A DNA stretch of 20,612 nucleotides, from the IMG/VR virus record IMGVR_UViG_3300030105_001406, positions 15,981-36,592 of that record. One strand, given 5' to 3'. A model generated the notes under the pieces. That model was not told the DNA's origin. It did not search any database and saw nothing but the letters and a program-made list of their open reading frames with translations. Position numbers and translations under genes: made by a program. Positions 789 to 20,612 of the stretch are shown here, piece after piece; position 1 is the stretch's first letter, and each line of letters opens with the position of its first letter. The stretch is from a virus.

Positions 789-810
789 ATAACCTCCGTT
801 TATGCTCTTT

Positions 811-861
811 ATATACTTACTACTAAGTATGTACTTATTGTTAAAAACTTAGTAAGTATAT
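811..861. repeat. Inverted-repeat cluster of TACTTA/TAAGTA half-sites upstream of the primase
   Basis: Perfect 12-base inverted arms lie at 811-822 (ATATACTTACTA) and 850-861. A second perfect dyad, TAAGTA-TG-TACTTA, sits inside at 824-837. The TACTTA hexamer or its complement occurs at 814-819, 824-829, 832-837 and 853-858, with a related ACTTAG at 847-852. Neither strand has a T tract after the outer stem, so this is unlikely to be an intrinsic terminator. It ends about 10 bases before the primase ribosome site, which suits an operator array or an RNA stem in the primase leader. Confidence 0.6.
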
Positions 862-1136
862 TACCTACTATGTAACCCTTCCACGAACGAACTATCTATA
901 ACTTTTGCTATGTCATTGGCTAATTTTTTTCGTGATAGTAAAGGATATTTATTCAATTCTTTTATACTTAATAATATTGTTTCTAAATGGATTTTATTTC
1001 TAAAACATAGAACTTTAAAATCATCTGATATAAAATAAGAGAGTGCCTGATTAGATAAATTCTCGTCCTTACTAGCAACATCTCTGACTGCTTGCTTTAC
1101 AATTAAAGAATCTAATTTCGTTAAGTTAATCTCCAT
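861..1136 (-). CDS. Small conserved phage protein of unknown function (91 aa)
   Basis: It encodes a soluble, probably helical protein with no signal peptide or membrane segment. The start chosen is ATG at 1136; a TTG two codons upstream at 1142 also opens the frame but is less likely. A weak AAGA ribosome site lies near 1144-1147. The middle reads ALSYFISDDFKVLCFRNKI, which resembles a recurrent phage pattern of the form A..Y..S.DF..LC that I remember from small phage proteins of unknown function. I cannot name a domain. It is the first leftward gene after the divergent control region and precedes the primase, so it may be an early or regulatory protein; that is inference only. The stop codon lies at the edge of the TACTTA inverted-repeat cluster. 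Confidence 0.7.
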   Translation of the reverse strand: MEINLTKLDSLIVKQAVRDVASKDENLSNQALSYFISDDFKVLCFRNKIHLETILLSIKELNKYPLLSRKKLANDIAKVIDSSFVEGLHSR

Positions 1137-1157
1137 AAACAAATCTTAATGTATCTC

Positions 1158-1171
1158 TTGCACATTTGCAA
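1158..1171. promoter_or_regulatory. TTGCA dyad, candidate operator between divergent operons
   Basis: The sequence TTGCA-CATT-TGCAA is a perfect inverted repeat with 5-base arms. It lies in the short region between the leftward 91-residue gene and the rightward recombination operon, where a regulator could control both directions. Its first arm overlaps the -35-like hexamer of the weak rightward promoter proposed at 1158-1186. No regulator is identified in the window. Confidence 0.4.
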
Positions 1172-1186
1172 CACATCAAGTAAACT
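1158..1186 (+). promoter_or_regulatory. Weak sigma70-like promoter candidate for the rightward early operon
   Basis: A possible -35 TTGCAC (1158-1163) is followed by 17 bases and a possible -10 TAAACT (1181-1186). The -10 matches the consensus at four of six positions and the -35 at three of six, so the case rests mainly on the spacing and on the position just upstream of the first rightward ORF. The -35 overlaps the TTGCA dyad. Confidence 0.25.
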
Positions 1187-1217
1187 TCATTCAGACATCA
1201 TAAAAGTTGGAGCGATT

Positions 1218-1277
1218 ATGGAAATGAATGAGTTTGATAAGTTAATGGCACTTCTACTATTTGTAGGAGTTAAGTAA
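1218..1277 (+). CDS. Possible 19-residue leader peptide
   Basis: This is a very short ORF starting at ATG 1218 with a clear GGAG ribosome site at 1209-1212, five bases upstream. It encodes MEMNEFDKLMALLLFVGVK and stops with TAA at 1275-1277, directly before the TTG start of the exonuclease gene. The last ten residues are hydrophobic. The good ribosome site and exact abutment suggest it is translated and couples ribosomes to the next gene. A chance ORF is possible at this length. Confidence 0.45.
   Translation: MEMNEFDKLMALLLFVGVK
1266..1269 (+). promoter_or_regulatory. Ribosome binding site that fixes the TTG start of the exonuclease
   Basis: GGAG at 1266-1269 stands eight bases before TTG at 1278. 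The first in-frame ATG is about 165 codons into the gene, within the nuclease domain, so TTG is the only sensible start. The site lies inside the 3' end of the 19-codon leader ORF, which allows translational coupling. Confidence 0.65.
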
Positions 1278-2174
1278 TTGAAATATAGCAATGTAAATAA
1301 CATACCGCAAGAAATAATCAGAGCAGTATCTAATGATAGTTATTCTAAAGGTGCTTCTACTATTTCTGTTACTGGCTTATTACAAAATCCAAGAATTAGA
1401 ATACTTAAAGAAGAACATGACGATAAAATCGTTGTCGATGTCTCTAACGAGATTTGGAAGCTATTAGGTCAAAGTGTCCATACTATTATCGAACGAGCTA
1501 ACGAGAGCAACACAGACACTATAACGGAGCAAAGAAACTTTGCAGTAGTAAATGGGTGGACGATAAGCGGACAGACAGACAGCATATCTATCGAAGAAAA
1601 AATCTTAAAAGATTATAAGGTCACTAGTGTTTGGTCAGTTATGTCAGCGACCAAAGACGGAAAGCTAGAATGGGAACAGCAATTGAATTGTTATGACTGG
1701 CTCACACGAAAGAACAACCCTGAAATTATTATTAACCAGTTAAATATAATTACAATCAACAGGGACTGGAGCAAAAATCAGATGCTGAGAAGTAGTGGCG
1801 ACTATCCAGTTGCACCAGTTAGCGTGATTCCGATCCCAAAATGGAGTAACGAAGAACAAGAAGAATTCATAAAAGAAAGAGTTTCAATTCATCAAGAAGC
1901 AGAAGCTGATTATCTAATCAGTAAAAAACTACCTTTGTGTAGTGATGTGGAAAGGTGGAGAAGGAAAGATGCTTATAGGGTAATGAAGAAGGGTAGGAAG
2001 TCTGCCTTGCGTGTGCTAGACACACAAAAATTAGCCGATGAGTATTTAAATGGTCATGATGACAAAGCTAAGTTGAGTATAGAGTTTCTTAAAGGGGAAG
2101 CTATACGATGCAAGGATTATTGTGATGTGGCTGAATTTTGTAATCAGTATCAAATGGAGAAAACTAATGGCTGA
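1278..2174 (+). CDS. PD-(D/E)XK (RecB/Cas4-fold) phage exonuclease
   Basis: This 298-residue protein has the ordered motifs of the RecB-like nuclease family: H68 (QSVHTIIE), D101 (SGQTDSIS), the D-x-K pair D112/K114 (KDYKVTS) and a QxxxY motif, Q135 to Y139. The C-terminus carries C221 (LPLCSDVERW) and a C278-x3-C282-x5-C288 cluster, a pattern seen in many phage nucleases of this group and suggestive of a metal or Fe-S site. The likely role is 5'-end resection of double-stranded DNA to make single-stranded tails for the annealing protein encoded next. Translation starts at TTG with a good ribosome site. The gene overlaps the annealing protein gene by 8 bases. The nuclease assignment is firm; substrate polarity and cluster type are inference. 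Confidence 0.85.
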   Translation: MKYSNVNNIPQEIIRAVSNDSYSKGASTISVTGLLQNPRIRILKEEHDDKIVVDVSNEIWKLLGQSVHTIIERANESNTDTITEQRNFAVVNGWTISGQTDSISIEEKILKDYKVTSVWSVMSATKDGKLEWEQQLNCYDWLTRKNNPEIIINQLNIITINRDWSKNQMLRSSGDYPVAPVSVIPIPKWSNEEQEEFIKERVSIHQEAEADYLISKKLPLCSDVERWRRKDAYRVMKKGRKSALRVLDTQKLADEYLNGHDDKAKLSIEFLKGEAIRCKDYCDVAEFCNQYQMEKTNG

Positions 2175-5749: not shown

Positions 5750-6115
5750 ATGAAGTTAATGGAACAACTGCAAGCAGATTTGCAAGAAAGAAAGGAAGTT
5801 TGGTGGGAATGGCACAAAGCAAACCCTGATGTTTGGTTAAAGTTTGAGGAGTTTACTCTTGAAGCAATCAAGTCAGGCAGAAAAAACTACTCTCATTGGG
5901 CGATAATCAATAGGATTCGTTGGCATAGTGAGATAGAAACTCAAGGTGGAGAGTTTAAGATTAGTAACGATTACATTTGCTTCTACGCTAGATTGTTTCA
6001 CGCTCGTTATCCTGTGCATAAAGACTTCTTTAGACTAAAACAGTTGAAACAAGAAAAAATGATGGAAGAATTACAGTCCGCCTTGGAACACAGGGACATT
6101 AGCCTTCTTCCTTAA
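5750..6115 (+). CDS. Conserved phage hypothetical protein (121 aa), end of the rightward operon
   Basis: This gene follows a good GGAGG (5739-5743), six bases before ATG 5750. The protein is helical and aromatic-rich: VWWEWHKANPDVWLKFEEFT (about residues 17-36), then NYSHWAIINRIRWH and a region NDYICFYARLFHARYPVHKDFFRLKQ. I recall phage proteins with the same W..FE.FT, RIRW and Y.R.F...YP.....F series near replication or packaging genes, but no known function. There is no metal or catalytic signature. Its last 45 bases overlap, in antisense, the end of the 2451-residue virion gene, with no intergenic terminator. Confidence 0.7.
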   Translation: MKLMEQLQADLQERKEVWWEWHKANPDVWLKFEEFTLEAIKSGRKNYSHWAIINRIRWHSEIETQGGEFKISNDYICFYARLFHARYPVHKDFFRLKQLKQEKMMEELQSALEHRDISLLP

Positions 6116-9100
6116 TTCAGGAACAAACGCTAATCTTGAGTCTCTTTGCAATTCTAGTTCTCTAATCAAGTCTGATTTAACTATAACGGATATGTCATCC
6201 CTTCTCATAACGGCATCTCTTTGCTTTCTCCAGTTCTCTAGGTATCTTTCCAAGGCTCTTACTTGACCTTTAACATTCATTACCCCTTGATAGTTAGCTC
6301 TATAAGTTGCCAGTTCATCAAATCGTTTATCTTTCTTCAGGCTGTTCATGGTCTGTGTAACTTTTTGAACTTCTCCTCTTAACTCATAAAACTGTTGTTG
6401 CAGTCCACCCATTTTCTTAGTGTCAACAAATAGTCTTTTAAAGACTGGTAGTTTTGTCCAGTTGGTAGGGTTATTGAAAGCATTGTTAGGAATGTATGGG
6501 CTTCCTGTAACTGTTCTAGTAATACTATCAGCAACAGATAAAGCATAGCCTCCTAGAGTTCCTGTGTAGCCTTTTAAGACATACTCTATCTTAATAGGTG
6601 ATATGTTAAGAGCTTCACCTATAAGCCTCGCTAACTCGTTTGTTTGAGGATTCGCCTGATAACCTGCCTGCTTACCTAACTTGTAGTAAGGAACTATATC
6701 TGAGCCTGTAAAAGCACTTTTGTTATTGATAGCCTCGAACAAAGGTTTAACTGCTTGAATACTTATGTCTCCACCTATAACTGGTATCTTAGTAGATGTA
6801 GCTATCTGTCTTGTTATAGACCTCAATGGGTCTTTTTCTACTTGACCCCAAGCCATATCTATTACTCTTTCAGGTAAAGCTTTGAATATCATACCGACTT
6901 CAAAAGGTATAGGTATCTTAACTGTGTAATCCCAAGGTGTAGGTAATAACCAGTTGTCATCTCTTACTTCTCGTTTAGCTTCTTTGTAATCTTCAGTATC
7001 ACTTACCAGTAAATAATATAATGCAGTTATTCCCATCAAGCTCAAACCTCTTAACAGGGCTGTTTTTGTAATTCTGCTTTTAACATCCTGCATACTCTCG
7101 CCCTTTTGCAGTTTTTCTGAAGCAGAATATTGACCAGAGAAAGACCTGTAGAGAACATCAAGACCTTGTATTCTTGCGTTTAAGAATGGTATTGAAGCAG
7201 TAATAAGTTTAAAAGTCGGTGAGTTTCCTCTGCGACCAAAATTAATAATTTCTAAAGCTTGGTAGGCTGCGGATGATTGAGCTTCGGCTTCTGTTGCATT
7301 ATTTTTTAATGCATTTTTATATACTGAATCATATACAGCTTTACGAGTTGCACCATCAGATTTAGTTGTTAATCCACCAAGTCCATCCCACATCTTAAAG
7401 AAAATATCTTCTGCGTTCATTCCGTTATTTGGTGAGAGTCCTTGTTGCCTTCTGGTTCTAGCCATGAATTGAACAATGTCACCTTCATCATTAGCAAAGT
7501 CATAACCACCTATGATTCCAAACTTTTCTAAGTCTTGCATATCGCCAAACATATTCTTAACTGAATCTATAATTGGTGTATAGCTATCTGAATCTATACC
7601 TAGTTCTACTCCTGATGTAACAGCAGAAGATAAGGTATCTCTAAGTATGTTTACAACAACAAATCCTGGGTCTCTTGTAACCATGTCTCTTAAAAATCCT
7701 GCTGGCATAGCAAAGAATTTAGTTAAGGCATCTGTTTTAATACCACCTACTGTTTGTATTGCATAATATATTTCTGGGTCTTCTAGTAAGAAATGTTTTT
7801 TGTTGCCGTCTTCAAACATAAATATTGTATTTAATCCTGCTGTATCTTTTGCAGGAATTTCTCTAGCCATACCCATTGTTTGCATGTCTCTTACTAATTT
7901 ACTAACACCATCATTTTTCATAGATGCAGTAAGGATAGATAAAGAGTTTCTAGCTATAGCTTCAAGTGGAGGTACAGTTATTTCTTGTTCTGAACCTTTC
8001 ATTTTTATTGATAAAGGATTATTAGGTAAATAACCACCACCAATAGCAGGTACTACTCTGCCTTCATCATCAATCATTTCTCTATAAAATGGGTAATAAG
8101 ATGAATGTGTTATCCATTGCGTAGCTTGTGCCTCACTTAACAAACCTTTGGCTTTTGCAAAACTAATTAATCCGTTATTCCATTTTTGATAATTGTTATA
8201 AACTTCTACTACACTTTTATAATTATTTTCTATTTGTTTTATTTGTTCTAAATCTTTTAAAGAAGGTGGTGTATCTATTTCAACACCATTTTCTTTAAGT
8301 GTTTTTATTCTTTTAAGTTTTCCGTAAAGACCAAATACATATTCTAAATCTATTGTAGGGTCTGCAAATAATGGTGCGGTAAATTGTACAAATCCACCTT
8401 TACCTTTATCTCCATCAATAAATGGATTGTATTTAGTATCTATATCTAATTCATCTACTACTGTTGAGGAATCAACACCCTCAATTTGAAATGCAGGAAT
8501 ACCTCTTGTAAGCATTTGTGCAAACACACCTCTTGCTCTATCTGCTAATCTTAAAGATGCTTCTGTTTGAGTTGTTATTAAACTGTTTGCAAGTCTTACT
8601 TCTTCTGCTGCTGTTTCTGCTTCTGCTTCAGTCCATAGTTTTTTAGTTTGAGGATTCTGTCTGCCTTTTTGTAAGTACCATTCTTTAGTTTGACCATTTA
8701 TTATGTTTTTTGTTATAGGGTCTAAACTATCAATAATTGATGACCTAAATCCATTAAATGATTTCTTTATATTAGTTATAGGGTCAGAAACTATATCTAT
8801 TAAACGCTCACCAGCAGTAGTAGTAGAACTTTTATGTCCGCTTTGTTTTGCTTGTTGTGTAAACTCTGTAGGAACTTCCATGTTAAGTTCAGTAAGTTTT
8901 ATTTTAGGAGCAGTTAAATCTTTAGAAAAATCTTGTGCAGCTTTTAAAGCTATATCAGAAGCATTTAAATTATAAGGAGGCACATCTCCTCTGGGTGTTT
9001 TCTTAGTAAGTTCTTCAGCACTTTCTACTGCTTTCTTTAAAGAAGCATTAGGATTTATAGAACGCTGTCCAGGTTGAAATGGAATAAACAAATCTTTTTG

Positions 9101-12100
9101 CTCAGGAGACAAGTTATTTAATTTATTTTGTAATGTTTGTATCTGACTTGTAACTTGACTTATCTGATTTTCAAGTTTGTTTCTATTAGAATTACTCATG
9201 TCTCCGACTTCTCTATTACGGACATTGTTTAAGTCATATAGTCTACTTTCTAGTTTACGAATCTGTGTTTCAATTGCTTGTCTTTGTGGCGAACCACGAC
9301 TTGTAAGAGGTTCTAGTTCAACAGCAACTTCTGTATTTATATTAGGGGTAAAATATTTAGCTATTTGTGCAGAAGAATCTGTTTCTAAACTAAGAAGACC
9401 ACTTGCTTCTTTTAGAAATACAGATAAGGCTGTTCCTTGTTTTGCAGGCAATGACAATAATTGTCTTACACCATTAACAAAAGCATCCCATAAAGTTTTT
9501 TGACCTTGTTGATTGTATTCAATTCCTTCCAGAAACTCTTGAAATTTTCTATTAGTTAAACCAACAGCCAGAAGTTCATCAATATTTTTTACTCCATACT
9601 TAACAAAAAAATCTACATTACCAGTTTTTTTTATTTCGCTTTGTATTCGTTTTCTTAATTTTTCTAAATTTTTATAATTACTATCTAATTTTGTATCACC
9701 TTCACCAAATCTCCATGAATGTTTAGGATTTGATATTGTGGTAGCTCCTTGAGTTGCAGCATGAATAGCTTCATGTAATATTGTTTCAAAATCTACACTA
9801 TTATTTCCATTTACATTTACTATGTAAACTCTAAAACGTCCATCATATCCATTACTTCCCATTGTAGGAAACATAGAAACGCCACCAAGACCTCGAATAT
9901 TTTTTTTCAAATATTTTATATCTCTTAAAAGAACATCATCATTAGTTTTTTGTGCAAGAAAAGATTCATCTGCATAAGTGTAATCAAAAGTTAAACCAAA
10001 TTTTGTGTTCAACATTTTAAGTTGTTTTAAAACAGACTTAGCTATAAAGCCATAGTCTTTGCTTGGTGCATTTTTTACAAACCATTCCATAACACCTATT
10101 AAACTTTTATCTTGTGTACCATTTAATATAAATTCAGAGTCTTCTAATTTTTCTGCTTCTGTTAATGTTCTTGAATCATATAAACCATTTTGATTAACAG
10201 TTCTGGTAGTTTTAGTTCCTTTAGGCGGAGCAATAATTCTTCCTTTTATAGGTTCATTTTTTGCAGCTTGAAAGTCTGTATTTTTTGTATCATTGAATGT
10301 TGCACCAGCTATATCAAATTCTTCTATATCTTGTGTTGATACTTCTGTTTCTGTATTAACATCTCCATCAAGACTTTCATCTACTTCAGCTATAGGTGCT
10401 AGTTCTGCTGTTATAGGAAGTCTATCTAATTCTCTTAAAGTTCTTATTTGATTTCTTTCTCTACTACCAACTTTGCCAGACTCTATATCTCCAAATATAT
10501 CTGCTGATTTTTTATAACCAGAAGAACGCATAGCCGTACCCATGCCTTTAAAGAAGTCTACAAACTTACCAAATATACCTTTAGCTTTTGGTGGTATGTC
10601 AGGTTTAATATCTTTAGCTCTATATAAATCTGCTATTGCACTTTCTATATACAGTTCTTCTATAGCATCAACGCCTTTACCTTCTGATGCAAGTTGTTGA
10701 ACTTTGTCATTATTTATTATTTTACTTCTTTCATAAAAAGTTTTGCCTTTGAAATTCTCATCAAAATCAACAGGAACTTTTTTACTCTTAACTAATTTTC
10801 TGAAATAGTTATATTCTTTTTCAGTAATTAAATCTTTGGCACGAAATGCATGTATAACCTGTGCATCTATAACAGAGTTTAACCTTGCTTGTATTTGTGC
10901 ATCTGTAAATGTTCCTTCAGGATTAACAGCATTAAAAGATAAAAGAATAGTATCTGTTTCAACATCATACTCTCCTTCAGTTTGTTGTTGTCTAGTTTGT
11001 GTAGGGTCAAATATTATTTCACCTTTTCTATCAGCAACTAAATTTGTTGAAGATAATATGTCATTACTTACAATGACACCTGTTTCTGTAAGTCCTAGTT
11101 TGTTTAATCTTTTCTTTAACTCTGTAGCAAATTTATTAGTTCTACCTTCTTCTATGACTTCATTGAAGTTCATAATTTTTGGTTCTAATTCAACAGGAGG
11201 TAATACTTTGTCTTGTCGCACACGTTCAGATTCTACTAACTGGTCAATAATATTTTGTGGTAACACTCCTTCGTTTTCTTTCCATGCTCTAAATTCTTCT
11301 GGTGTTTGACCAAATGATTCTGCTTTTCTAGCTATATCAAACTCAAAGTTATCTCTGATTCTTAAAGTTGAAAATTTACTTCCTTCAGGTGATTCAGCTC
11401 TACCACTTGTTTTTAAATCTTCAAAAAAAGTATCTGCTTGTTCTAATAAAATGCCATCGTTAAGTTGTATTTCTTGGTCTAAAGTAATAGGTAGACCGCC
11501 TTCTGTTTGTGGAAGTCCTGAACCATAGTATTTTGATTCTCTGCCTACGAATCTATCTTTTAAATATGTTTGAATATCATCATATGTAAATGTTGATTTA
11601 CCTACACCACCAACAAAATCAGCCATATCTTGTGCTGTATATTCTCTAACTCTAAAGTCAGGTAGAGGTGTAAATACATTAAATTTAGGTAACGAATGTA
11701 TTCTAGCCAATAACAATTCTCTTTGACCACGATTCATTCCTTTGAACGATGTTGCACCAGTAACCATTGTATTGAATCTATCAAAAGCAATGCTATTAAC
11801 ATCTAAATCTATATTTTTAGATGAAGCTAATTCTTTTAAATATTTTTGTGTAATATTTAATTCTTCTTTATCTGCACGAATAGAAGGCTCGCCTGATTTC
11901 TCAGATGCTGTAAATACAGTTTGTGCCATATCAGCATTAAGTGCGTTAAATGCTTTAGGAGATAAAAACTTTTGAGCTTCAGCCATTGTATAAGTTGTTT
12001 TAAATGGTTGTTTACGAGTTTTTTCTACATAATCTTTTACTTCTGTTAAATTATCTTGATTGCCAGATGTATCAATTCTTTTCTTTTGTTTTGGTCCTTT

Positions 12101-13426
12101 ATATCTAGAGTCAAAATTAAGAATAGTTTGTAAATTAACTTCTGTATTGTTTGGGTCAAGTACAGTTGCACCAATATTTTGGGCTGTATCACTTTCGCTC
12201 AAGCCCATGCTGTATAAATCATTGTCTAATCTAGACTTTAATTTATCTCTTTCGTATTGGTTGTTTTGTTTTTCTCTAAGAACTAAAGCTTCTGTTTCGC
12301 TAGATGCTACTGCAACAACAGGATTTTCTGTTGCTTCTATATCAATGACTGCGAATGAGCCATCAACAAGTTGTGTAATTTCTAATTTTGGTTGTGTTCC
12401 TGAAACACCTGGAATAGGTATATTTGGTTTAGTTTTAGATTCTTGTTCTTGATATTCGGTAACTTCTCCTTGGTCTATAGCTCTTTCAAATTTACCTTGT
12501 TCTTGTAAGTAAAGTTTATTTGCTCTAGCTTTACCTTCTCGGTCATTATGATAAGCAGAACCAGCTCCTCTTTTTCCGCCCATAGAATTTAAGATTACAT
12601 TAGCACTACCACCAATAATACCTCCAATAGTAAGCTCATCAAACCAACTTTCTCCTATAGGCAATTCATCGCTATATAAACCTCTAGCAGTTAAATCTTG
12701 TGCAAGACTGGCTAGTAATTCTTGACTACCTTCAGTTACCGCACCACTACCAAATTGTTTTAATGTATTTGTTATTTGTTCTTTTACAGTAGGATTTTTT
12801 AAAGCAGTTTTATTTACTCCTTGTAAAAATCTTGCTACAGGCATTACTTCAGATGCACCTATAACTCCACCAAAAAGTTCAGAAAAAATTTCAGCTAAAG
12901 GTCCAACTTCTTCACCCATTTCTTTTGCTTGTGCTTGTAATTCTACTTGTCTAGCTATACCAGTAGGACTAGCTAAAGCTAATGGAAGACCAAATTGACC
13001 TGCTGTTTCACTAATAATACCTCTATTAGCTAATGCTCGACCTGCTAAACCAACACCTAAAAAAGGTAAAAATGAACCGACACCTTCTGCAAGTTTAGTA
13101 GAATAGTTATCTCTAAATTTTGGGTCTGAAGCAAAAGGAGAATCTTCTCGTAAATACTTTCTATATTCTAGTAAGTCTGTAACAAGTTCACTATCATTAC
13201 CCATGTCAAATAAACCAGCTAAACCTAAAGGTATATCTGAAGCTAATCCTATAGTTCCCCTAGCTACTGATTTTAATTTATCTCCAGAACTCTCTAAAAT
13301 AGTAGATTGATTTATATCAATACCATAAGTAGCCATAACATCTTCTGCTATCTGTGTTCTTTTGGTAGGGTCTAAATCATCTGGAACATTTAGAGTTTGA
13401 CCATTTTCTAATTGATACTTAGCCAT
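6071..13426 (-). CDS. Giant internal virion / DNA ejection protein (2451 aa) with metallopeptidase-like and LPD38-type domains
   Basis: The start is ATG 13426 with AAAGGA upstream. The N-terminus has glycine-rich hydrophobic stretches (VGSFLPFLGVGLAG near 116-129; IGGIIGG near 267-273). A metallopeptidase-like region near 840-960 has AQVIH (855-859) where HExxH is expected, retained H859 and a possible third ligand E928. A second such domain has HEAIH at 1218-1222 and a downstream E1284 (IDELLAVG), the gluzincin pattern. A coiled-coil stretch lies near 1380-1445. From about 1905 to 2330 the protein resembles the LPD38-type domain of large phage polyvalent proteins, with a hydrophobic segment near 2120-2140 (ALLRGLSLMGITALYYLLV). 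Such proteins are packaged in the capsid and ejected to breach the envelope and guide DNA. Proteolytic activity is plausible but unproven. It is the last gene of the leftward operon. Confidence 0.8.
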   Translation of the reverse strand: MAKYQLENGQTLNVPDDLDPTKRTQIAEDVMATYGIDINQSTILESSGDKLKSVARGTIGLASDIPLGLAGLFDMGNDSELVTDLLEYRKYLREDSPFASDPKFRDNYSTKLAEGVGSFLPFLGVGLAGRALANRGIISETAGQFGLPLALASPTGIARQVELQAQAKEMGEEVGPLAEIFSELFGGVIGASEVMPVARFLQGVNKTALKNPTVKEQITNTLKQFGSGAVTEGSQELLASLAQDLTARGLYSDELPIGESWFDELTIGGIIGGSANVILNSMGGKRGAGSAYHNDREGKARANKLYLQEQGKFERAIDQGEVTEYQEQESKTKPNIPIPGVSGTQPKLEITQLVDGSFAVIDIEATENPVVAVASSETEALVLREKQNNQYERDKLKSRLDNDLYSMGLSESDTAQNIGATVLDPNNTEVNLQTILNFDSRYKGPKQKKRIDTSGNQDNLTEVKDYVEKTRKQPFKTTYTMAEAQKFLSPKAFNALNADMAQTVFTASEKSGEPSIRADKEELNITQKYLKELASSKNIDLDVNSIAFDRFNTMVTGATSFKGMNRGQRELLLARIHSLPKFNVFTPLPDFRVREYTAQDMADFVGGVGKSTFTYDDIQTYLKDRFVGRESKYYGSGLPQTEGGLPITLDQEIQLNDGILLEQADTFFEDLKTSGRAESPEGSKFSTLRIRDNFEFDIARKAESFGQTPEEFRAWKENEGVLPQNIIDQLVESERVRQDKVLPPVELEPKIMNFNEVIEEGRTNKFATELKKRLNKLGLTETGVIVSNDILSSTNLVADRKGEIIFDPTQTRQQQTEGEYDVETDTILLSFNAVNPEGTFTDAQIQARLNSVIDAQVIHAFRAKDLITEKEYNYFRKLVKSKKVPVDFDENFKGKTFYERSKIINNDKVQQLASEGKGVDAIEELYIESAIADLYRAKDIKPDIPPKAKGIFGKFVDFFKGMGTAMRSSGYKKSADIFGDIESGKVGSRERNQIRTLRELDRLPITAELAPIAEVDESLDGDVNTETEVSTQDIEEFDIAGATFNDTKNTDFQAAKNEPIKGRIIAPPKGTKTTRTVNQNGLYDSRTLTEAEKLEDSEFILNGTQDKSLIGVMEWFVKNAPSKDYGFIAKSVLKQLKMLNTKFGLTFDYTYADESFLAQKTNDDVLLRDIKYLKKNIRGLGGVSMFPTMGSNGYDGRFRVYIVNVNGNNSVDFETILHEAIHAATQGATTISNPKHSWRFGEGDTKLDSNYKNLEKLRKRIQSEIKKTGNVDFFVKYGVKNIDELLAVGLTNRKFQEFLEGIEYNQQGQKTLWDAFVNGVRQLLSLPAKQGTALSVFLKEASGLLSLETDSSAQIAKYFTPNINTEVAVELEPLTSRGSPQRQAIETQIRKLESRLYDLNNVRNREVGDMSNSNRNKLENQISQVTSQIQTLQNKLNNLSPEQKDLFIPFQPGQRSINPNASLKKAVESAEELTKKTPRGDVPPYNLNASDIALKAAQDFSKDLTAPKIKLTELNMEVPTEFTQQAKQSGHKSSTTTAGERLIDIVSDPITNIKKSFNGFRSSIIDSLDPITKNIINGQTKEWYLQKGRQNPQTKKLWTEAEAETAAEEVRLANSLITTQTEASLRLADRARGVFAQMLTRGIPAFQIEGVDSSTVVDELDIDTKYNPFIDGDKGKGGFVQFTAPLFADPTIDLEYVFGLYGKLKRIKTLKENGVEIDTPPSLKDLEQIKQIENNYKSVVEVYNNYQKWNNGLISFAKAKGLLSEAQATQWITHSSYYPFYREMIDDEGRVVPAIGGGYLPNNPLSIKMKGSEQEITVPPLEAIARNSLSILTASMKNDGVSKLVRDMQTMGMAREIPAKDTAGLNTIFMFEDGNKKHFLLEDPEIYYAIQTVGGIKTDALTKFFAMPAGFLRDMVTRDPGFVVVNILRDTLSSAVTSGVELGIDSDSYTPIIDSVKNMFGDMQDLEKFGIIGGYDFANDEGDIVQFMARTRRQQGLSPNNGMNAEDIFFKMWDGLGGLTTKSDGATRKAVYDSVYKNALKNNATEAEAQSSAAYQALEIINFGRRGNSPTFKLITASIPFLNARIQGLDVLYRSFSGQYSASEKLQKGESMQDVKSRITKTALLRGLSLMGITALYYLLVSDTEDYKEAKREVRDDNWLLPTPWDYTVKIPIPFEVGMIFKALPERVIDMAWGQVEKDPLRSITRQIATSTKIPVIGGDISIQAVKPLFEAINNKSAFTGSDIVPYYKLGKQAGYQANPQTNELARLIGEALNISPIKIEYVLKGYTGTLGGYALSVADSITRTVTGSPYIPNNAFNNPTNWTKLPVFKRLFVDTKKMGGLQQQFYELRGEVQKVTQTMNSLKKDKRFDELATYRANYQGVMNVKGQVRALERYLENWRKQRDAVMRRDDISVIVKSDLIRELELQRDSRLAFVPELRKKANVPVFQGGL

Positions 13427-13436
13427 TATTCATCCT

Positions 13437-14852
13437 TTAGGTAAGAGTTAGACCAGAATCATTCATTCTTTGTTTTCTAGTTGCTTCAGAATTTGCTGAA
13501 GCATAACCTTGCATAGTAGCTAATCGTTCACTTAATGAATTTATATATCCTTGTATTTGTGCTATTTGTGCAACACTTGTTTTACTACCATCATTTTGTT
13601 CTACTAATGTTTTTAACATTTTTGCATAAGTATCAATTTCTTTTCTTAAATCTGTAGCAGGTAAAGCTTTAGTTTCAGCTTCTAACTTACCTGTTTGTGC
13701 TTTGTAATAAGCTTCTTGTGCTCCAGCTAAACCTTGAGATGCATCTCTAGTTTGCATATTGCTAGCTATACCAGTAATGCCTTTACCTAAATCAGTTAAG
13801 TTTTGAGAACCTAATATAACACCACCTAGTTGAGCCATATCAAGACCAGCCCTTCTTCTATCTGCTTTTTCTTTAGATGCTACATAATCAGAAAGAGATG
13901 TAATATTACCTTCAGCAGCCTTATCTCTAGCAGCTTGTATATCAGCTAATCTTTTTTCTTCTGCTTCTCTTGCTAATCTAACTTCTTTTTCTGCATCTGT
14001 TTCTTGTTTTTGTTCATTTTGATTTAAAGACAAAGGAGAGTCTCCATCCATTAAAGCATAAGTTGTTCCACCAACTGTAGAACCGCCTAAAAGTTTATAT
14101 GGTAGGTCTCGTCTCAATGCTTCTCTACCAGTTTGTAAAACTGTGTTTGGATTGTATGGCATTGTAGCTGGCATACCACCCCTTCTAGTTAATTCTTTTT
14201 GACCAGCGTTCATAAGTCTTTGTGCTCTTTTAGCATCATAAATTTTCTTTAATCCTGAACCTCCTCTAATACCCAAACTTAATAGTTTAGTAACACCTGC
14301 ACCAATTCTTGCTCCTGGTGCTGGTGTAAATAAAAGAGCTAAAGATGCAGCATTTAAACCAAGAATTGCTTTTTGTGCAGTTGTTAATCCTTGAGAGTTT
14401 TGTATTATTTCTTCTCTTTGGTCTGTAGATAAAGATTCTACTGGAATGGTTTCATTGTTAGGATTAGCAAAAGATTGACTTAAACTATCTCCTCCTAAAT
14501 TTAAAGAGCCACCATTATCATATCCAGTTATACCACCACTTGCTGCCATTTGCATGGGAGCAGAGGCAGGCATACCACTTAATCCTGGTGAGAAATCATC
14601 AGTTGGAGCTGACCCAGATGGTATACCTGCTTGCAAACCTTGAGGTTGAATAAACTCATTAACAACTTCTTCAGCTACTGTAGTAGTAGGCTGTTCCTGC
14701 ATTGCTGCATAAGCTTTTTCATTCTTTGTTCTTCTTTGTATTTCAGATATAACTAAGTATTGTGGAAAACGAGAACTAGGGTCTTGCGACATTTGAGCAA
14801 GTTGTTCTTTATTAACATACTCTAAATCATTTGCTGCTTCTATTAAATTCAT
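13437..14852 (-). CDS. Virion (tail or internal) protein, 471 aa
   Basis: I do not recognise a named family. The N-terminus (1-70) is helical, followed by a low-complexity Gly/Pro/Ala region with the motif AASGGITGYDNGG at 103-115, which also occurs in the LysM virion protein upstream. A hydrophobic patch AILGLNAASLALLFTPAPGA (162-181) and glycine-rich segments follow. A charged helical stretch (285-335) leads to GLDMAQLGGVILGSQNLTDL (336-355) and a C-terminal coiled-coil-like region (375-460). The gene lies between two virion genes with start/stop spacing of one to ten bases, consistent with co-translation and a structural role. A DNA ejection or tail tube associated protein is the best guess. 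Confidence 0.65.
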   Translation of the reverse strand: MNLIEAANDLEYVNKEQLAQMSQDPSSRFPQYLVISEIQRRTKNEKAYAAMQEQPTTTVAEEVVNEFIQPQGLQAGIPSGSAPTDDFSPGLSGMPASAPMQMAASGGITGYDNGGSLNLGGDSLSQSFANPNNETIPVESLSTDQREEIIQNSQGLTTAQKAILGLNAASLALLFTPAPGARIGAGVTKLLSLGIRGGSGLKKIYDAKRAQRLMNAGQKELTRRGGMPATMPYNPNTVLQTGREALRRDLPYKLLGGSTVGGTTYALMDGDSPLSLNQNEQKQETDAEKEVRLAREAEEKRLADIQAARDKAAEGNITSLSDYVASKEKADRRRAGLDMAQLGGVILGSQNLTDLGKGITGIASNMQTRDASQGLAGAQEAYYKAQTGKLEAETKALPATDLRKEIDTYAKMLKTLVEQNDGSKTSVAQIAQIQGYINSLSERLATMQGYASANSEATRKQRMNDSGLTLT

Positions 14853-14853
14853 A

Positions 14854-16443
14854 TTAACCCATACCTTTATATAGACCTAAACCACTCAATCCTGCACCTA
14901 CTGCAGTTTGAAATAATCCTGGTTGTTGCTGAAATGTACTTCTCATTTGTGTTGGAGTTACTGGTACGCCTCTTAATACTCCACCAAAATCACTAAGTTG
15001 TTGTTTAGCATAGTTCTGTTGTCGTTGAAAATCTTCATAACCTAAATCCATACTAGCTTGTGATAGAGCACGTTGTTGAGAACCAATGCCTTGTAAAGCA
15101 TTAATTCTAGAAAGAGCATCTTGTTGTTGTGCAGTTCCTATTCCTTGTAGTCCTTCAGCAGAAGCTAAGTTATAACGACTAGATAAATCATAACCACTTT
15201 GTCTAAATTTCTCTTGTGCTTGTCTTGATGCTTCATTTTGTTGTGCTGCTGTTAAACCAAGTTTAGCTGCTTGTTGTCTTGCGGCTTCACCTGCTTGATA
15301 ACCTTGTATTCCTTGTGCACCTTGCTGTTGCAAAGCTGATTGTTGTGCTCTAAATGCATCTAATCCCTGTGCACCCTGTTGCTGTAAAGCTTGTTGGTTC
15401 ATCTGGAATCCAGATTGATTAAATTTTTCACCAGCTTGTCTAGCAGCTTCTTCTTGTTGTTGAGCACTTAAACCTAAATCTGCAGCTCTTTGTCTAGCTG
15501 ACTCTCCAGCAGAATATGCAGCTTGACTGAATGATTCTTTTTGTTGTCTTGCTTGTTCGCCTTGTCCAAAAGCAGCTTGAGATAATTGTTCTTGAGTTTG
15601 TCTTGCTCCTTCACCAGCAGTAAATTTCTGTAATCCAAATTGTGCTGCACCTAATCCGCCTGCTCTTTCTCTTTCAAGTTGTTGCTGTGCTGATTCAAAT
15701 GCTGATTGACTGCCTCTTGCTTGTATATCTCCTAATTGCTGACCAAGATTACGCTCTCTTTCTGCTTGTACAATAGCTTCGCGATAACCACCTAAGCCAC
15801 CTTGAGATGTAGCAGCATCTTGTATACCTTTACCTGATATTTCAGATTGTCTTCTAGCTTCACGTTTTTCTATGTCAGTAACATTTTGTTGATACGGAGA
15901 CATAAATCTTTGTAAATTATCTTCATAATTTAACGGAGCATAGCTATCTCCCATAGAGCCTGCTTGATAGCTAGACTGTCTAGTAGTTGGGTCATAGCCA
16001 GATGTGATATCTCCAGCTTGATAACCTGCATCAAATTGCCCTGCTTGATAAGAAGGAGTAAATTGATTTGCTTGATAAGTTGGTCCTGCTTGACCAGCTT
16101 GATAAGTATCACCCATTTGTTGTGGTTGATAACCTGACTGAGCTTCTGTTGCATTGTATTCACCACCAATAGTACCTTGTTGGTTAAATCTATTTTGTGC
16201 ATCTGTATAAGCTTGAGGAGTACCAGAGGTAGCAAAACCTCTAGTCATTGCTTGTGAGGTCATTTCATCAGGAGAGAAATAAGCTAATCTTTGACCACCA
16301 TATGGGTCATAGCCTTGAAGACTTTCTGCTTCACCTCTTTGTAGCAGTCGCTTAAAATACGGCTCTACATAATCTGGTAAATCAGTATTAGTTACAGTTG
16401 TTTCTGTTGGTGCGGAGCTACCGCCTCCTTTATAATATCTCAT
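14854..16443 (-). CDS. Glutamine-rich repetitive virion protein, 529 aa
   Basis: This is a low-complexity structural protein. Residues 1-60 form a short unique N-terminus (YYKGGGSSAPTETTVTN; DLPDYVEPYFKRLLQRGE). Residues 105-170 hold short YQAG repeats. Residues 190-480 are a long helical, Gln/Ala/Arg-rich coiled-coil-like stretch in which a 33-residue unit (314-346 and 386-418, sharing LGLSAQQ/LGLTAAQQ and EKFNQSG/EKFRQSG) is duplicated. The C-terminus (480-529) is a different, glycine-containing segment with FQTAVGAGLSGLGLYKG. AAGGA lies nine bases before the ATG, which overlaps the preceding stop (ATGA). A fibrous tail or internal virion component is likely; no enzyme motif is visible. Confidence 0.65.
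   Translation of the reverse strand: MRYYKGGGSSAPTETTVTNTDLPDYVEPYFKRLLQRGEAESLQGYDPYGGQRLAYFSPDEMTSQAMTRGFATSGTPQAYTDAQNRFNQQGTIGGEYNATEAQSGYQPQQMGDTYQAGQAGPTYQANQFTPSYQAGQFDAGYQAGDITSGYDPTTRQSSYQAGSMGDSYAPLNYEDNLQRFMSPYQQNVTDIEKREARRQSEISGKGIQDAATSQGGLGGYREAIVQAERERNLGQQLGDIQARGSQSAFESAQQQLERERAGGLGAAQFGLQKFTAGEGARQTQEQLSQAAFGQGEQARQQKESFSQAAYSAGESARQRAADLGLSAQQQEEAARQAGEKFNQSGFQMNQQALQQQGAQGLDAFRAQQSALQQQGAQGIQGYQAGEAARQQAAKLGLTAAQQNEASRQAQEKFRQSGYDLSSRYNLASAEGLQGIGTAQQQDALSRINALQGIGSQQRALSQASMDLGYEDFQRQQNYAKQQLSDFGGVLRGVPVTPTQMRSTFQQQPGLFQTAVGAGLSGLGLYKGMG
15190..15288 (-). repeat. Copy 2 of a 33-residue duplication in the Q-rich virion gene
   Basis: This encodes residues 386-418 (start EAARQQAAKLGL, end EKFRQSGY). 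It matches residues 314-346 at most positions, so the gene has an imperfect 99-base duplication about 216 bases apart. Confidence 0.6.
15406..15504 (-). repeat. Copy 1 of a 33-residue duplication in the Q-rich virion gene
   Basis: This encodes residues 314-346 (start ESARQRAADLGL, end EKFNQSGF), the upstream copy of the duplicated unit. Confidence 0.6.
15934..16131 (-). repeat. Short YQAG protein repeats
   Basis: Residues 105-170 contain at least five copies of a TYQAGQ/SYQAGQ/GYQAGD-like unit with variable linkers; on the plus strand the shared core reads CTGCTTGATAA or a close variant. The repeats look like a locally expanded, probably flexible segment. Confidence 0.6.
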
Positions 16444-16922
16444 TCTTCTGCATCCTTAAAATTATATTCATAAAAAGTAGCTGGTTTTGTCCAACCTTTT
16501 TTATTTTTTACCCAATTCCATTGTCCATGTCTACCCATTCCTTCTATGCCATCACATCCAGTTTCTTTAGCAAACTTCTTAATTACATCTATTCCTATTT
16601 CTACCCAGTTCTGCATATTGCTTCCAGAAGTATGTTCAAGATTAAGCATTTTTTTTCCTGTAGGATAAGTATTAAACATAGTTATCAAAACACCAGAAAT
16701 ATCTAAATTGTCTTTGTCAAATATAATCCATAAATGACATTTGTTATTTAAACAATCGTAAAAAATATCTTCTACTCTTATTCTATTACCTGAACGGCTA
16801 GCAGATTTTTTTAAATATTTTTCACAATCATCCCATACTAAAGATAATTTATCAGAAGTTACTAAAGATAAACTATATTCTTCTGTTTTAGTTTCTGTTG
16901 GCTTTATTGCTACTTCATTCAT
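16440..16922 (-). CDS. GNAT-like acyltransferase-fold protein (160 aa)
   Basis: The protein has the character of phage GNAT-like proteins: a helix DDCEKYLKKSASRSG (31-45), then EDIFYDCLNNKCHLWIIFDK (51-70), then ISGVLITMFNTYP (75-87), LNLEHTSG (93-100), and IDVIKKFAKETGCDGIEGMGR (111-131) with HGQWNWVKNKKGW. The CoA-binding R/QxxGxG/A loop is not clear, so activity is uncertain; many virus-encoded copies may be structural. Its start overlaps the stop of the LysM virion gene and its stop overlaps the start of the Q-rich virion gene (both ATGA), so it is co-translated in the virion operon. That placement suggests modification of, or binding to, a virion protein. Confidence 0.65.
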   Translation of the reverse strand: MNEVAIKPTETKTEEYSLSLVTSDKLSLVWDDCEKYLKKSASRSGNRIRVEDIFYDCLNNKCHLWIIFDKDNLDISGVLITMFNTYPTGKKMLNLEHTSGSNMQNWVEIGIDVIKKFAKETGCDGIEGMGRHGQWNWVKNKKGWTKPATFYEYNFKDAEE

Positions 16923-19900
16923 CTTGGTAACATCCCTCCAGCATTAGCAAGCTTAGGTGCTTGTTTAGTAGTTCCTGTTTTTTCGTTACGAACTCTATCC
17001 ATCATGTCATAAAGTTCTTTAGAGCCAGCATCTGAACTACCATCTCCTAGCATTGATACTACATCGGCTGGAACAATAAACTCATCTTGTGATACAGCTA
17101 TTCTTTCTTGATTGCCAATACGACCAAATAAGTCATCATCCATTCCGCCATTACCATCACCTTGTATTTGTCCTTCTGTTTGTGCATTAGGAACTAGGCT
17201 TTCTAATATTTGTTGTCTTAATTGCATAAATGCTTCATTACCATATTTTTGTATAAAGGCATTAAGAGCTTCATTATTATCAGACTGACCTAGAATAAAT
17301 TGAGTTACTTCAGTAATAAGAGGGTCAGTTTGACCGCCTTCTTGATAACCCATTGTATCTACAACTTGCGGTGCAACTCTTTGTAAAGCTTCTAAACCTT
17401 TATTAGGAAGTGTATCTCCACCTTCTGCTCTACGATTTGGTCTAGATATACGCGATGGACCTTCTCTGTCTATTCTTCTTACTGGCTCAGAAACAGGCAT
17501 TGGTGCAGGAGTAGGTTCAAGCATTAATTGCTGTATTACTTCTGGTGGTAACTGCTGTATTTCTGGTGGCAATTGTTGCAGAATTTCTGGAGTTAATTGT
17601 GGCATTATTGGCTGTGGAACAGGAGGAGCTACAGGCATTGGCTGTTGTACAGGTAATGGCATTGGTTGTTGCATTATAGGTTGAGGCATAAATCCGCCAC
17701 TAATTATATCTTTTTCATTAATTCCAGATATAGGCTGAGGAATAGATACTGGAGTAGTTACAGGCATAGGCTTAGGTCTTTCTCGTGGCGGTTCTGGCAT
17801 AAACCCATCTGGTCTTCCTTTTGTAGGTAATTGTGCTATTGATGGAGGCATAATAGGTCTACCCATTCCTGGTCTTCCTGATTCATCAAATTCAAATGGA
17901 GGATTAAAAGGTACTGGATTCTCATTAATCATAGGAGGTATAACTGGTTCTGGTCCAAACTTATCTCTCATATCATCAACTTGTTCTGGAGAAAATGTAT
18001 TATCAAAGTCTGTAACATTAGGTAATCCATTATTAAAAAATCCTGGATTTTCTATTGGAGGTACGCCTGAACCTGGGATTCCTGCACCTGGATTAAAACC
18101 TGCTGAAGGTCCTGGTCTTGAAGGAGGTTGTGGGAAAGTTATTGGAGGCGGAATCATAAAGTCTTCACCTGCTCCTGTATCTATTTCTTCTCCTGTGTTT
18201 TGATTAAAATTAGAAAAATCTATACCAGTAAAATCAGGAATACCATCTGCACCTATATTACCAAAATCAATACCACCAAAATCAAAATCACCAAAATCAT
18301 ATTGATCTCCTGGGTTAATACCAATTCCTGGAGGAAATTTAATAGGTGGAAAATCAATAGGCGGATAATCTGGTGGTCCATCTGGTGGTCCATCTGGTGG
18401 TCCATCTGGTGGTGGTGTAATTGGTGGTCCATCTATCGGTGGTGTTACTGGTGGTGGTGGTGCAGCATTAGTAAACTGCAATCCTTGTGGTGCTTGTCCT
18501 GTAAAAGCTGCGTATGGGTCAATAGAAGTTTGTGGTGCAATAGATGCTTGCATACCTCCGTAACCTCCTTTAGAGCCTTCATAAGTATCAATACCTGTTG
18601 GCGGTCCACCTCTAGTTAAATTACTAGCAGGAGCACTTACAGTTGCTGGATTAAAATACATTGTTTCTGGTGCAAAACCAGCCATAAAGTCTGGATTGAC
18701 TTGATAAGCTGCTCTATCAGGTGCATATATCTGTGGAAGTTCTCCACCTGTATAATTTCCACCTCCTCCAAAGAAGCCATCGTCTATACCAAATCTTTCT
18801 CCCATTCCTCCTCCTTCACGATAACCTGTTATACCACCTGCTGCAGAGTAAAGAATTGGCTCTGGTGCATTTCTATACATTTCTTCTCTATCTTTATTAT
18901 ATCTGTCTAGTCTATCTGCTTCTTGTTGAGCGAATAGTTCTTGTGAATCCATAATAGCTGTACCGCCCATGCCTATTCCTGCTGGAATATAAGCACCAGG
19001 TTGGCTTAAACCTTGAGCTAAATTACCAAATCCTGAGCCAAGTTGATTACCTGCTGCATCAGCACCAGCACCTACAAAAGTATTAGCATTTACTGCTTGT
19101 CCAAACCCTTGTTCTGCTAATGGATTTATAACATTAGAACCAACCATATTATTTCCAAATGCAGATTGTAAATTCTGTATTCCTGTAGAAGATGCTGCAG
19201 TTTTTGCTGCTTCTGCACCTGCTTGTTGTGTTGCTTGATTAATTGCATTAATGCCAGCTTCAGTTCCCATTTCTCCTGCTGTCGTTACTGCGGATGTTGC
19301 TACATCAGTACCTGCTGCTGCTCCTGCTGCTCCTGCTGCTCCTTGTAAAGCAGAACCTATTCCATAACCAGTTAAACCAGCTAACATACCTTTTTTAAGG
19401 TCTCCTGTTACTAATGTTGTTGCTGCTGCTGAACCTAAAGCTCCTGCTGCTAAAGAAGATAAACCAGCACCTGCTACACCTGCTCCACCTAATCCTGTTA
19501 ATAATGCACTACCACCTAATGATCCAAGTAGTGGTGCTAAGAAAGGTAAGAAAGCTTCAGGCTGTCCTGTTTCTGGATTTACAGTTATAGGCATTGCTTG
19601 TGCCAGTCCTTTAACTTCTGCAGGATTAACATGAAGTAGCATGGAATCGCCATAACGACCTTGATTTGCTACATTTTGTGTTTGTTCTTTTATGTTCATA
19701 TTTGTGTTTCCACCTTTATTAAAATTGTATCTTGTTTGTCCGCCTTGTGCTGTAAGATTTATGTTACTTTTTCCGCCTTGTCCTGTTCCTTCTTGCGGTC
19801 CGTAATAACCCATAAAATTTCTTAGTTGTGCGTATGGGTTAAAACCAGCATCATCAATACTTCCAAAATATTGTTTTACTTTTTTTAATCCTGTTGCTTC

Positions 19901-20503
19901 TGTTTGAGGTTTAAAATCAAAAGTATCTACAACACGATAACCACCACCTTCTTGGGGAATAGCTGTAGCCTGTCCTAAAAATGTTTTTAAATTGTAATTA
20001 GGATTTTGTATTTTACTTGCTAAATCTCCTACAGACATATCACTTGTTCTATCAACATCTGCATATTGGCTGCCTTCAGATGTTGTTGCATAATCTTTAT
20101 ATTCAATAAGATTAGGGTCTAGTCCTTGTGCTTTTTTTTCTGCAATTCTTTCTGCTGTTTGACTACGAGCAATAACCTCTTTAAGTGTTTTTTTTTCTTC
20201 TGTTGATAAATCTTCTTCTGTTCTATCTTGATTAGGATTTAAAAATTGTCTTACATTAATTGGTAATATAGGTTCTCTTTTTTTTGTTTTTTTCTTTGGT
20301 TTAGTTCTTTTTTTTTCTTGAGGTTTAACTCTTTCAACACTAGATGGTTTCTTTTTCTTTGGTTGAGGAATGATTAAACTTGCACCAGCTTGTATTTTAT
20401 TAACATCTTTTATTTTATTAGCTGCAGCTAAATCCTTTACAGATATACCTAGTTTTTTAGATATTGCACTAAGAGTATCGCCTTTTTTAATTTTATATTG
20501 CAT
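16919..20503 (-). CDS. Large virion protein with N-terminal LysM domain and proline-rich repeats (1194 aa)
   Basis: Residues 2-46 form a LysM peptidoglycan-binding domain (YKIKKGDTLSAISKKLGI, then NKIQAGASLIIP). A lysine-rich linker (49-77) follows. Residues 281-320 contain the conserved block RYGDSMLLHVNPAEV and ITVNPETGQPEAFLPFL. Residues 320-430 are hydrophobic and Gly/Ala-rich. GGITGYREGG is at 556-565. A proline-rich segment (682-730) holds four DGPP units plus PPITPPP; two further Pro/Met/Gln-rich stretches lie near 860-1005. The C-terminal 1105-1183 region (EGQIQGDGNGG, then EFIVPADVVSMLGDGSSDAG) matches a widespread marine phage virion C-terminus. ATG 20503 is preceded by AGAGGA. It likely docks the virion on cell-wall peptidoglycan or forms part of the tail. 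Confidence 0.7.
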   Translation of the reverse strand: MQYKIKKGDTLSAISKKLGISVKDLAAANKIKDVNKIQAGASLIIPQPKKKKPSSVERVKPQEKKRTKPKKKTKKREPILPINVRQFLNPNQDRTEEDLSTEEKKTLKEVIARSQTAERIAEKKAQGLDPNLIEYKDYATTSEGSQYADVDRTSDMSVGDLASKIQNPNYNLKTFLGQATAIPQEGGGYRVVDTFDFKPQTEATGLKKVKQYFGSIDDAGFNPYAQLRNFMGYYGPQEGTGQGGKSNINLTAQGGQTRYNFNKGGNTNMNIKEQTQNVANQGRYGDSMLLHVNPAEVKGLAQAMPITVNPETGQPEAFLPFLAPLLGSLGGSALLTGLGGAGVAGAGLSSLAAGALGSAAATTLVTGDLKKGMLAGLTGYGIGSALQGAAGAAGAAAGTDVATSAVTTAGEMGTEAGINAINQATQQAGAEAAKTAASSTGIQNLQSAFGNNMVGSNVINPLAEQGFGQAVNANTFVGAGADAAGNQLGSGFGNLAQGLSQPGAYIPAGIGMGGTAIMDSQELFAQQEADRLDRYNKDREEMYRNAPEPILYSAAGGITGYREGGGMGERFGIDDGFFGGGGNYTGGELPQIYAPDRAAYQVNPDFMAGFAPETMYFNPATVSAPASNLTRGGPPTGIDTYEGSKGGYGGMQASIAPQTSIDPYAAFTGQAPQGLQFTNAAPPPPVTPPIDGPPITPPPDGPPDGPPDGPPDYPPIDFPPIKFPPGIGINPGDQYDFGDFDFGGIDFGNIGADGIPDFTGIDFSNFNQNTGEEIDTGAGEDFMIPPPITFPQPPSRPGPSAGFNPGAGIPGSGVPPIENPGFFNNGLPNVTDFDNTFSPEQVDDMRDKFGPEPVIPPMINENPVPFNPPFEFDESGRPGMGRPIMPPSIAQLPTKGRPDGFMPEPPRERPKPMPVTTPVSIPQPISGINEKDIISGGFMPQPIMQQPMPLPVQQPMPVAPPVPQPIMPQLTPEILQQLPPEIQQLPPEVIQQLMLEPTPAPMPVSEPVRRIDREGPSRISRPNRRAEGGDTLPNKGLEALQRVAPQVVDTMGYQEGGQTDPLITEVTQFILGQSDNNEALNAFIQKYGNEAFMQLRQQILESLVPNAQTEGQIQGDGNGGMDDDLFGRIGNQERIAVSQDEFIVPADVVSMLGDGSSDAGSKELYDMMDRVRNEKTGTTKQAPKLANAGGMLPR
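18371..18406 (-). repeat. Perfect 12-base tandem repeat, three copies
   Basis: TGGTGGTCCATC is repeated three times exactly on the plus strand, followed by a TGGTGG half unit. On the coding strand it encodes tandem DGPP units within the proline-rich segment of the LysM virion protein. Confidence 0.8.
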
Positions 20504-20612
20504 TATCTATCCTCTTTGGTTTCGCATCCAAACATGTTAAAACTCATGTCAACCGCACTCGTATAAACTTTTATAACATCTGTTTGATTTAATGTTATAC
20601 CAATTACCAAAG
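20503..20612 (-). CDS. C-terminal end of an upstream leftward gene (partial)
   Basis: The frame is open from the right edge of the window to TAA at 20505-20503, which shares a base with the ATG of the LysM virion gene (TAATG). The 35 visible residues include VIGITLNQTDVIKVYTSAVD and end FGCETKEDR. No family can be assigned from so little. Overlap with the next start and the shared strand suggest it is the gene before it in the virion operon. A start inside this fragment cannot be excluded. Confidence 0.5.
   Translation of the reverse strand, partial: LVIGITLNQTDVIKVYTSAVDMSFNMFGCETKEDR

Follow-up and report, generated by a model that had tools for sequence, protein, structure and literature searches.

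An exchangeable LysM-containing cassette at the N-terminus of a putative ejection-type protein of a podovirus-like phage

The DNA analyzed here (the window, a 20,612-nucleotide stretch of an IMG/VR virus record) encodes a 1194-residue protein that opens with a two-domain cassette, made up of a LysM domain, a variable linker and a second conserved domain of ~170 amino acids, and comparison of homologous genes indicates that this cassette is exchangeable and not intrinsic to the protein. We favor, at about even odds, the reading that the open reading frame (ORF) encodes an ejection-type internal virion protein of a marine phage, whose optional cassette would dock it on, and maybe act on, the host wall.

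RESULTS AND DISCUSSION

The ORF and its LysM domain

The full ORF lies at positions 16919..20503 on the minus strand, and its start ATG shares one base with the stop codon of an upstream 112-aa gene. Because the C-terminal sequence of that gene is readable at the end of the window (20503..20612, minus strand; the window ends inside the gene, which is complete in relatives), we consider the start assignment secure. Residues 1-46 (20366..20503, minus strand) form the LysM domain, as seen from the Pfam match, an invariant motif and a fold match. The PF01476 LysM profile covers residues 3-46 with all 43 of its positions (E = 1.2e-13), and the score of 51.2 bits against a curated cut-off of 20.9 is far beyond chance. 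This match bears out the earlier note on this DNA, which had placed a complete LysM module at 20366-20503, at the N-terminus of a 1194-residue protein. The same note had held that unconserved LysM key residues would speak against its reading; GDTLS and several Ile, Leu and Asn positions are instead invariant in all 15 aligned LysM carriers.

The predicted LysM superposes on the sugar-binding LysM 4uz3 with a Z score of 8.7 and an rmsd of 1.2 across 48 residues, and the LysMs of contractile-injection baseplates match the model too (Z 6.6-7.4). When a profile of the cassette was compared with PDB sequences, 31 matched; these were mostly LysMs that bind wall or chitin, and no baseplate LysM was among them. 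By sequence and fold, we infer that this LysM is of the sugar-binding type, and binding to GlcNAc-containing glycans is predicted.

A second conserved domain within the cassette

The LysM is followed by a linker at residues 47-79 (20267..20365, minus strand) that is variable between relatives. The very basic character that the earlier note described is present in the window protein, where residues 48-79 hold 16 K/R vs 3 D/E, but it is specific to part of the relatives: in an alignment of 15 sequences both length and composition vary, and some relatives have long linkers that are not Lys-rich. That note also had the linker running into a long low-complexity body. The body is indeed Pro/Gly-rich, but a conserved domain of ~170 aa intervenes at residues ~80-250 (19754..20266, minus strand), with a D193-x-F-D196 motif and an LRN-MGY-GPQEGTG block. 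Among the 15 aligned LysM carriers this second domain is better conserved than the linker.

All 26 aligned members of the second domain match phrog_7348, which is labeled 'endolysin'. No Pfam family, enzyme or other, was hit at E < 0.01, and a PDB sequence search returned no relative. The AF2 model of the domain from one homologue (L079) reached a pLDDT of 78.4 and a pTM of 0.74, and Foldseek with this model found no relative in the PDB; neither of the domain models had a convincing counterpart in the PDB outside LysM, and among viral predicted structures the domain models matched unnamed phage proteins only (best E 3.3e-6). Within the 2564 positions of the phrog_7348 profile, the LysM of a homologue (L072) aligns to 2106-2154 and the window protein's second domain to 2384-2549, so that giant phage proteins, too, seem to end in this pair. 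A diverged copy of the second domain (27% identity, E 4e-5) sits in gp40, a 1893-aa protein in the structural block of the Pelagibacter phage HTVC115P, in which a Pfam search found no LysM. Conserved and, beyond its PHROG label, without a described family, the second domain may represent a new wall-active fold.

One structural lead points to the colicin M family, whose catalytic motif is given as DxYDx5HR and for which degenerate motifs, and some domains of this kind that are inactive, have been described (PMC5821083, PMC8469651). A possible colicin-M D-x-Y-D motif had been noted before the structural match to syringacin M appeared. In a comparison of the second-domain model with 153 chains (VIA), only syringacin M (4fzm), of the colicin M family, reached Z >= 2, and its Z of 2.1 (rmsd 5.2, 105 residues) is too low for a claim of shared fold from the model. 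D-x-[YF]-D occurs in 22 of the 26 second-domain members, with D-x-F-N in the 4 gp40-type rows, and all 26 lack the HR pair at its expected place and with it the complete colicin M motif. The PDB sequence search with the second domain gave no match to colicin M. PF14859 found no match in 22 phage records, one bacterial genome and 390 genomes of its order, a search in which the controls also gave none. We treat a colicin-M-like fold, suggested by the model, as a lead only and not as a classification.

The cassette is present, absent, replaced or separate among relatives

Beyond the cassette lies the core protein, residues 269-1194 plus the stop codon (16919..19699, minus strand), defined from IMG/VR homologues and a tree of 40 cores. 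It consists of a conserved start, a Gly/Ala-rich segment, a Pro-rich body and a conserved C-terminus. The Gly/Ala-rich segment, residues ~317-420 (19244..19555, minus strand), is partly hydrophobic on the Kyte-Doolittle scale, with the sole stretch above 1.6 at residue 317, and the Pro-rich low-complexity stretch at residues 700-1030 (17414..18406, minus strand; 23% Pro) agrees with the low-complexity Pro-rich body described earlier. The conserved C-terminal motif (EFIVPADVVSMLGDGSSDAG...; residues 1112-1193; 16925..17170, minus strand) recurs in a protein of Synechococcus phage MinM2 whose gene occupies the equivalent place (E 5.7e-10). A tblastn search with the whole protein against isolated phages gave no match at E 1e-5.

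Searching IMG/VR with the whole protein as query returned 51 loci, and these, together with loci found via the second domain and the window itself, make up a core set of 55 proteins; a further 13 of 68 proteins had no core motif or were set aside. The LysM, whose presence or loss in homologues the earlier note proposed to check, is present in 29 of the 55, while 19 begin at the core and have no N-terminal extension, their gene start being the equivalent of residue 269, and the other 7 have a different N-terminus (5 of type A, 2 others). On five phage contigs (L027, L029, L035-L037) an alternative N-terminal extension of ~300 aa (MAKEKQDINPEQFNEF...) stands in place of the LysM cassette.

The tree, built from 40 of the 55 cores (at least 480 aa, duplicates removed), requires at least 5 changes of the LysM label on well-supported branches, and the two rows nearest to the window by path, L002 and L011, are without LysM. 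The exchange is also seen in pairs of close relatives. Between L001 (with LysM) and L002 (without), 4.2 kb of 5' flank is 96.0% identical up to the gene start, and identity returns at 95.7% at the core start, with an intervening block of ~264 codons; the pairs L013/L034 and L036/L030 likewise differ by a clean replacement (89% and 92%). Across 16 phage records taken whole, all of them possibly incomplete, a LysM was found in 6/6 whose gene carries the cassette and in 0/10 others.

Cassette and core also exist apart. In L072 the 112-aa gene is followed by a cassette gene with its own stop codon, and the core begins a few bases on in another frame; in L075, L078, L079 and L080 the cassette stands alone as a 259-263-aa gene whose neighbors are the large terminase gene and one for a small basic protein, with a 91-92-aa protein between cassette and terminase gene in the last three. 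The window protein is therefore a fusion of two proteins. At L028:4115-4470 (plus strand), the gene start repeats the core-start motif (MNIKEQT...), followed by an unrelated insert and then the true core start; the repeat may mark a route by which N-terminal cassettes are inserted.

For 18 chosen of 36 LysM carriers, with pairs at dS >= 1.5 dropped, the core start had a median dN/dS of 0.10, against 0.36 in the LysM and 0.43 in the second domain. These sequence comparisons indicate that the cassette is under purifying selection, yet evolves faster than the core, as expected for a host-facing or optional part. Literature searches on LysM in pelagiphages and podoviruses, within a limited collection of papers, turned up no description of this cassette. 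Near-identical natural phages that differ by one putative wall-binding cassette make its role in entry or host range testable by comparison, and the passage of short-tailed phages through the wall is understood in few models.

Gene order and podoviral context

In the 15 relatives examined, the genes run in the order lysozyme, a protein of ~621-632 aa, 67 aa, 112 aa and the homologue of the LysM ORF. The lysozyme gene belongs to PF00959 in the one relative tested. For the ~632-aa protein the match is to phrog_3287 'virion structural protein' (E 1.1e-76); it is annotated as a stabilization protein in isolates, and has relatives in the pelagiphages HTVC023P and HTVC027P, the Roseobacter phages CRP-901/902 and the freshwater phage DSL-LC04. 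The genes of CRP-901 are arranged in much this way (constituent, 62 aa, 107 aa, 316 aa, 120 aa, GNAT, 461, virion structural protein, 759). The window's own record carries terminase, portal and GroES-like genes and ends before the coat and tail genes, so that the upstream order given here is that of the relatives. There the LysM gene follows a tubeB/P22-gp10-like tail-tube gene in the structural block, which is the position of podoviral ejection proteins. According to PMC10386132, which also covers LUZ24-like marine clades that others assigned to Pelagibacterales, a podovirus with an ejectosome can be recognized from a tubeB (gp10-like) gene that has ejectosomal genes after it. By its gene content, the phage has the portal and tubeB-type genes of short-tailed phages.

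Downstream on the minus strand, a 160-aa gene (16440..16922) is a relative of HTVC023P gp80, and CRP-901 has an annotated GNAT acetyltransferase at its position; a 529-aa gene (14854..16443) has relatives in the structural blocks of MinM2, CRP-901 and DSL-LC04. A 471-aa gene of the same block (13437..14852, from the ORF list) had no relative among the isolates compared. The block closes with a giant protein of 2451 aa (6071..13426) that contains an LPD38 domain (PF18857, E 9.1e-34) and is related to a 2803-aa protein of MinM2.

Several other features of these records deserve mention. In the window's record (L053) a gene for a GroES-like co-chaperonin (1666-2067, minus strand; phrog_3188) separates the portal gene from the putative scaffold gene, and the record also encodes, outside the window, a MoxR-like AAA ATPase (8610-9719, plus strand; named by eye), near which lies a DUF2201 metallopeptidase/VWA protein (10866-12194, plus strand; PF13203, PF09967). 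The helicase-primase gene at the window's left edge contains four undetermined residues, a short N run immediately to the left of the window. In L072, a 593-aa ORF (102-1883, plus strand) that precedes the lysozyme gene is CHASE2-like by eye. PADLOC found nothing, and a scan of genome contigs with an alignment that included the LysM gave 79 loci, was swamped by bare bacterial LysM proteins and is uninformative on the host.

A possible role in passage through the wall

We propose that the ORF encodes an internal protein, of the ejection or pilot type, of an ejectosome-type podovirus, in which a conserved core (residues 269-1194) that travels with tail-tube and ejection genes carries the optional two-domain cassette at its N-terminus. 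Ejection would deliver the LysM to the periplasm, where it would bind GlcNAc-containing glycan of peptidoglycan and anchor the protein, and the anchored ~170-aa domain may then act at the wall or help the DNA conduit through it. The proposal draws on the sugar-binding type of the LysM and on the gene order (lysozyme, tubeB-like, 67 aa, 112 aa, this gene), from which the status as a virion protein is inferred. It is also suggested by DSL-LC04, in which the start of the core matches a protein with the annotation 'tail tape measure' (E 6e-4) and an annotated DNA transfer protein closes the corresponding block, and by the position of a second-domain relative inside HTVC115P gp40; T7 gp16 gives a functional precedent. 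Against it stand the purely structural use that a LysM can have in virions (as in Mu gp43, PMC11915804), the 'endolysin' label of the second domain in PHROGs, the standalone cassettes that adjoin the terminase gene and not an ejection block, the many relatives without a cassette, and dN/dS values that are higher in the cassette than at the core start. The earlier suggestion that the LysM could hold the virion on peptidoglycan fits the gene position, the LysM type and, in homologous loci, a separate upstream lysozyme gene; it has to be recast in that the virion location is itself putative, the LysM can be swapped or dispensed with, and a second conserved domain had been overlooked.

Alternative readings

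The LysM could instead be a tail assembly element that makes no contact with peptidoglycan, the role it has in the baseplate hubs of myophages and in contractile injection systems. LysM folds in the baseplates of Mu gp43, Milano gp25, A-1(L) and R2 pyocin (PMC11915804), along with the fit of contractile-injection baseplate LysMs to our model, are in its favor. We nevertheless think it unlikely: the known cases are contractile machines while this phage has podovirus-type genes, the PDB profile matches include wall- and chitin-binding LysMs and zero baseplate LysMs, and absence of the module from very close relatives would be odd for an essential assembly contact. We rate as similarly improbable, and if anything a shade more so, that the cassette is endolysin-like, combining a LysM with a wall-active domain, and was fused to its neighbor, and that it acts at the end of infection. 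Such a lysis function would suit the phrog_7348 label, the separate cassette genes near the large terminase gene and the L072 arrangement, where the cassette is its own gene directly before the core. Complete loci, though, already have a GH24-type lysozyme gene nearby upstream, a lysin would hardly be expected as part of a long Pro-rich protein of virion type, and the second-domain relative of HTVC115P lies inside a giant protein of the structural block.

A different possibility, compatible with an ejection-type protein and not exclusive of it, is that two products arise from the gene, one of full length with the LysM and the other a LysM-free core from an internal ATG at Met269 (19697..19699, minus strand); we hold this tentatively, with clearly less than even confidence. 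Met269 lies where the unfused core genes, among them the separate core gene of L072, have their start codon, and the ATG is kept in 26/26 fused forms listed. It is preceded by a Shine-Dalgarno-like stretch, AAAGGTGGA (19709..19717, minus strand; duplex energy -6.5), that is not significant alone. Mean ribosome-binding energy at the 26 distinct Met269 sites (-6.5) matches that of true starts (-5.8 for the 19 unfused starts, and -5.4), compared with -2.2 at 1474 other in-frame Met, and for endolysins, single phage genes that yield two isoforms have been described (PMC12203907, PMC7098653). At -7.5, however, the 814 Gly-Gly sites of these genes do equally well, which makes the Met269 site unexceptional, and because of these sites its signal may be a by-product of a Gly-Gly motif in the protein. 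Conservation of the Met carries little weight, since the core start is conserved as a whole, and the distant fused form in DSL-LC04 keeps the GG linker and has no Met there; in that comparison Met at position 1 of the core slices is by construction, and the retention of Met269 is taken from the 26 fused forms. Quite improbable, in our estimate, is the broadest combination of these ideas, in which podoviruses of the sea would share an exchangeable wall-targeting cassette, a LysM with a diverged colicin-M-like domain directed at lipid-linked wall precursors, that exists as a free protein, as the tail end of a giant protein, or at the N-terminus of an ejection protein whose gene would yield a cassette-free form as well, from an internal start.

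Comparison with known systems

Both LysM domains in virion proteins and wall-active ejection proteins are already known. A close functional parallel to the ejection-type protein proposed here is T7 gp16, which is ejected and has a domain at its N-terminus that cuts the wall (PMC8954989). As in T7 gp16 and podoviral ejection proteins, a wall-directed domain would stand at the N-terminus of a long internal protein, encoded in a podovirus-type block after a tail-tube gene. T7 gp16 has a lytic transglycosylase, whereas the window protein has a LysM and an uncharacterized domain; here, moreover, close relatives exchange the module or do without it, and ejection is predicted from gene order. LysMs in non-lysin virion proteins are documented in myophage baseplates (PMC11915804), and the window protein, putatively structural, resembles the baseplate hubs Mu gp43 and Milano gp25 in this respect; those belong to contractile tails and make structural use of the fold, and the PDB profile search gave no sequence relation to them. 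The same LysM and second-domain pair is found in phrog_7348, where it ends a giant protein, unlike its place here at the N-terminus of a different protein. With the colicin M family, the DxYDx5HR lipid II phosphatases, most second-domain members share D-x-[YF]-D-F, and the model shows the faint resemblance to 4fzm; the family differs in its HR pair, and the sequence searches gave no match between the two.
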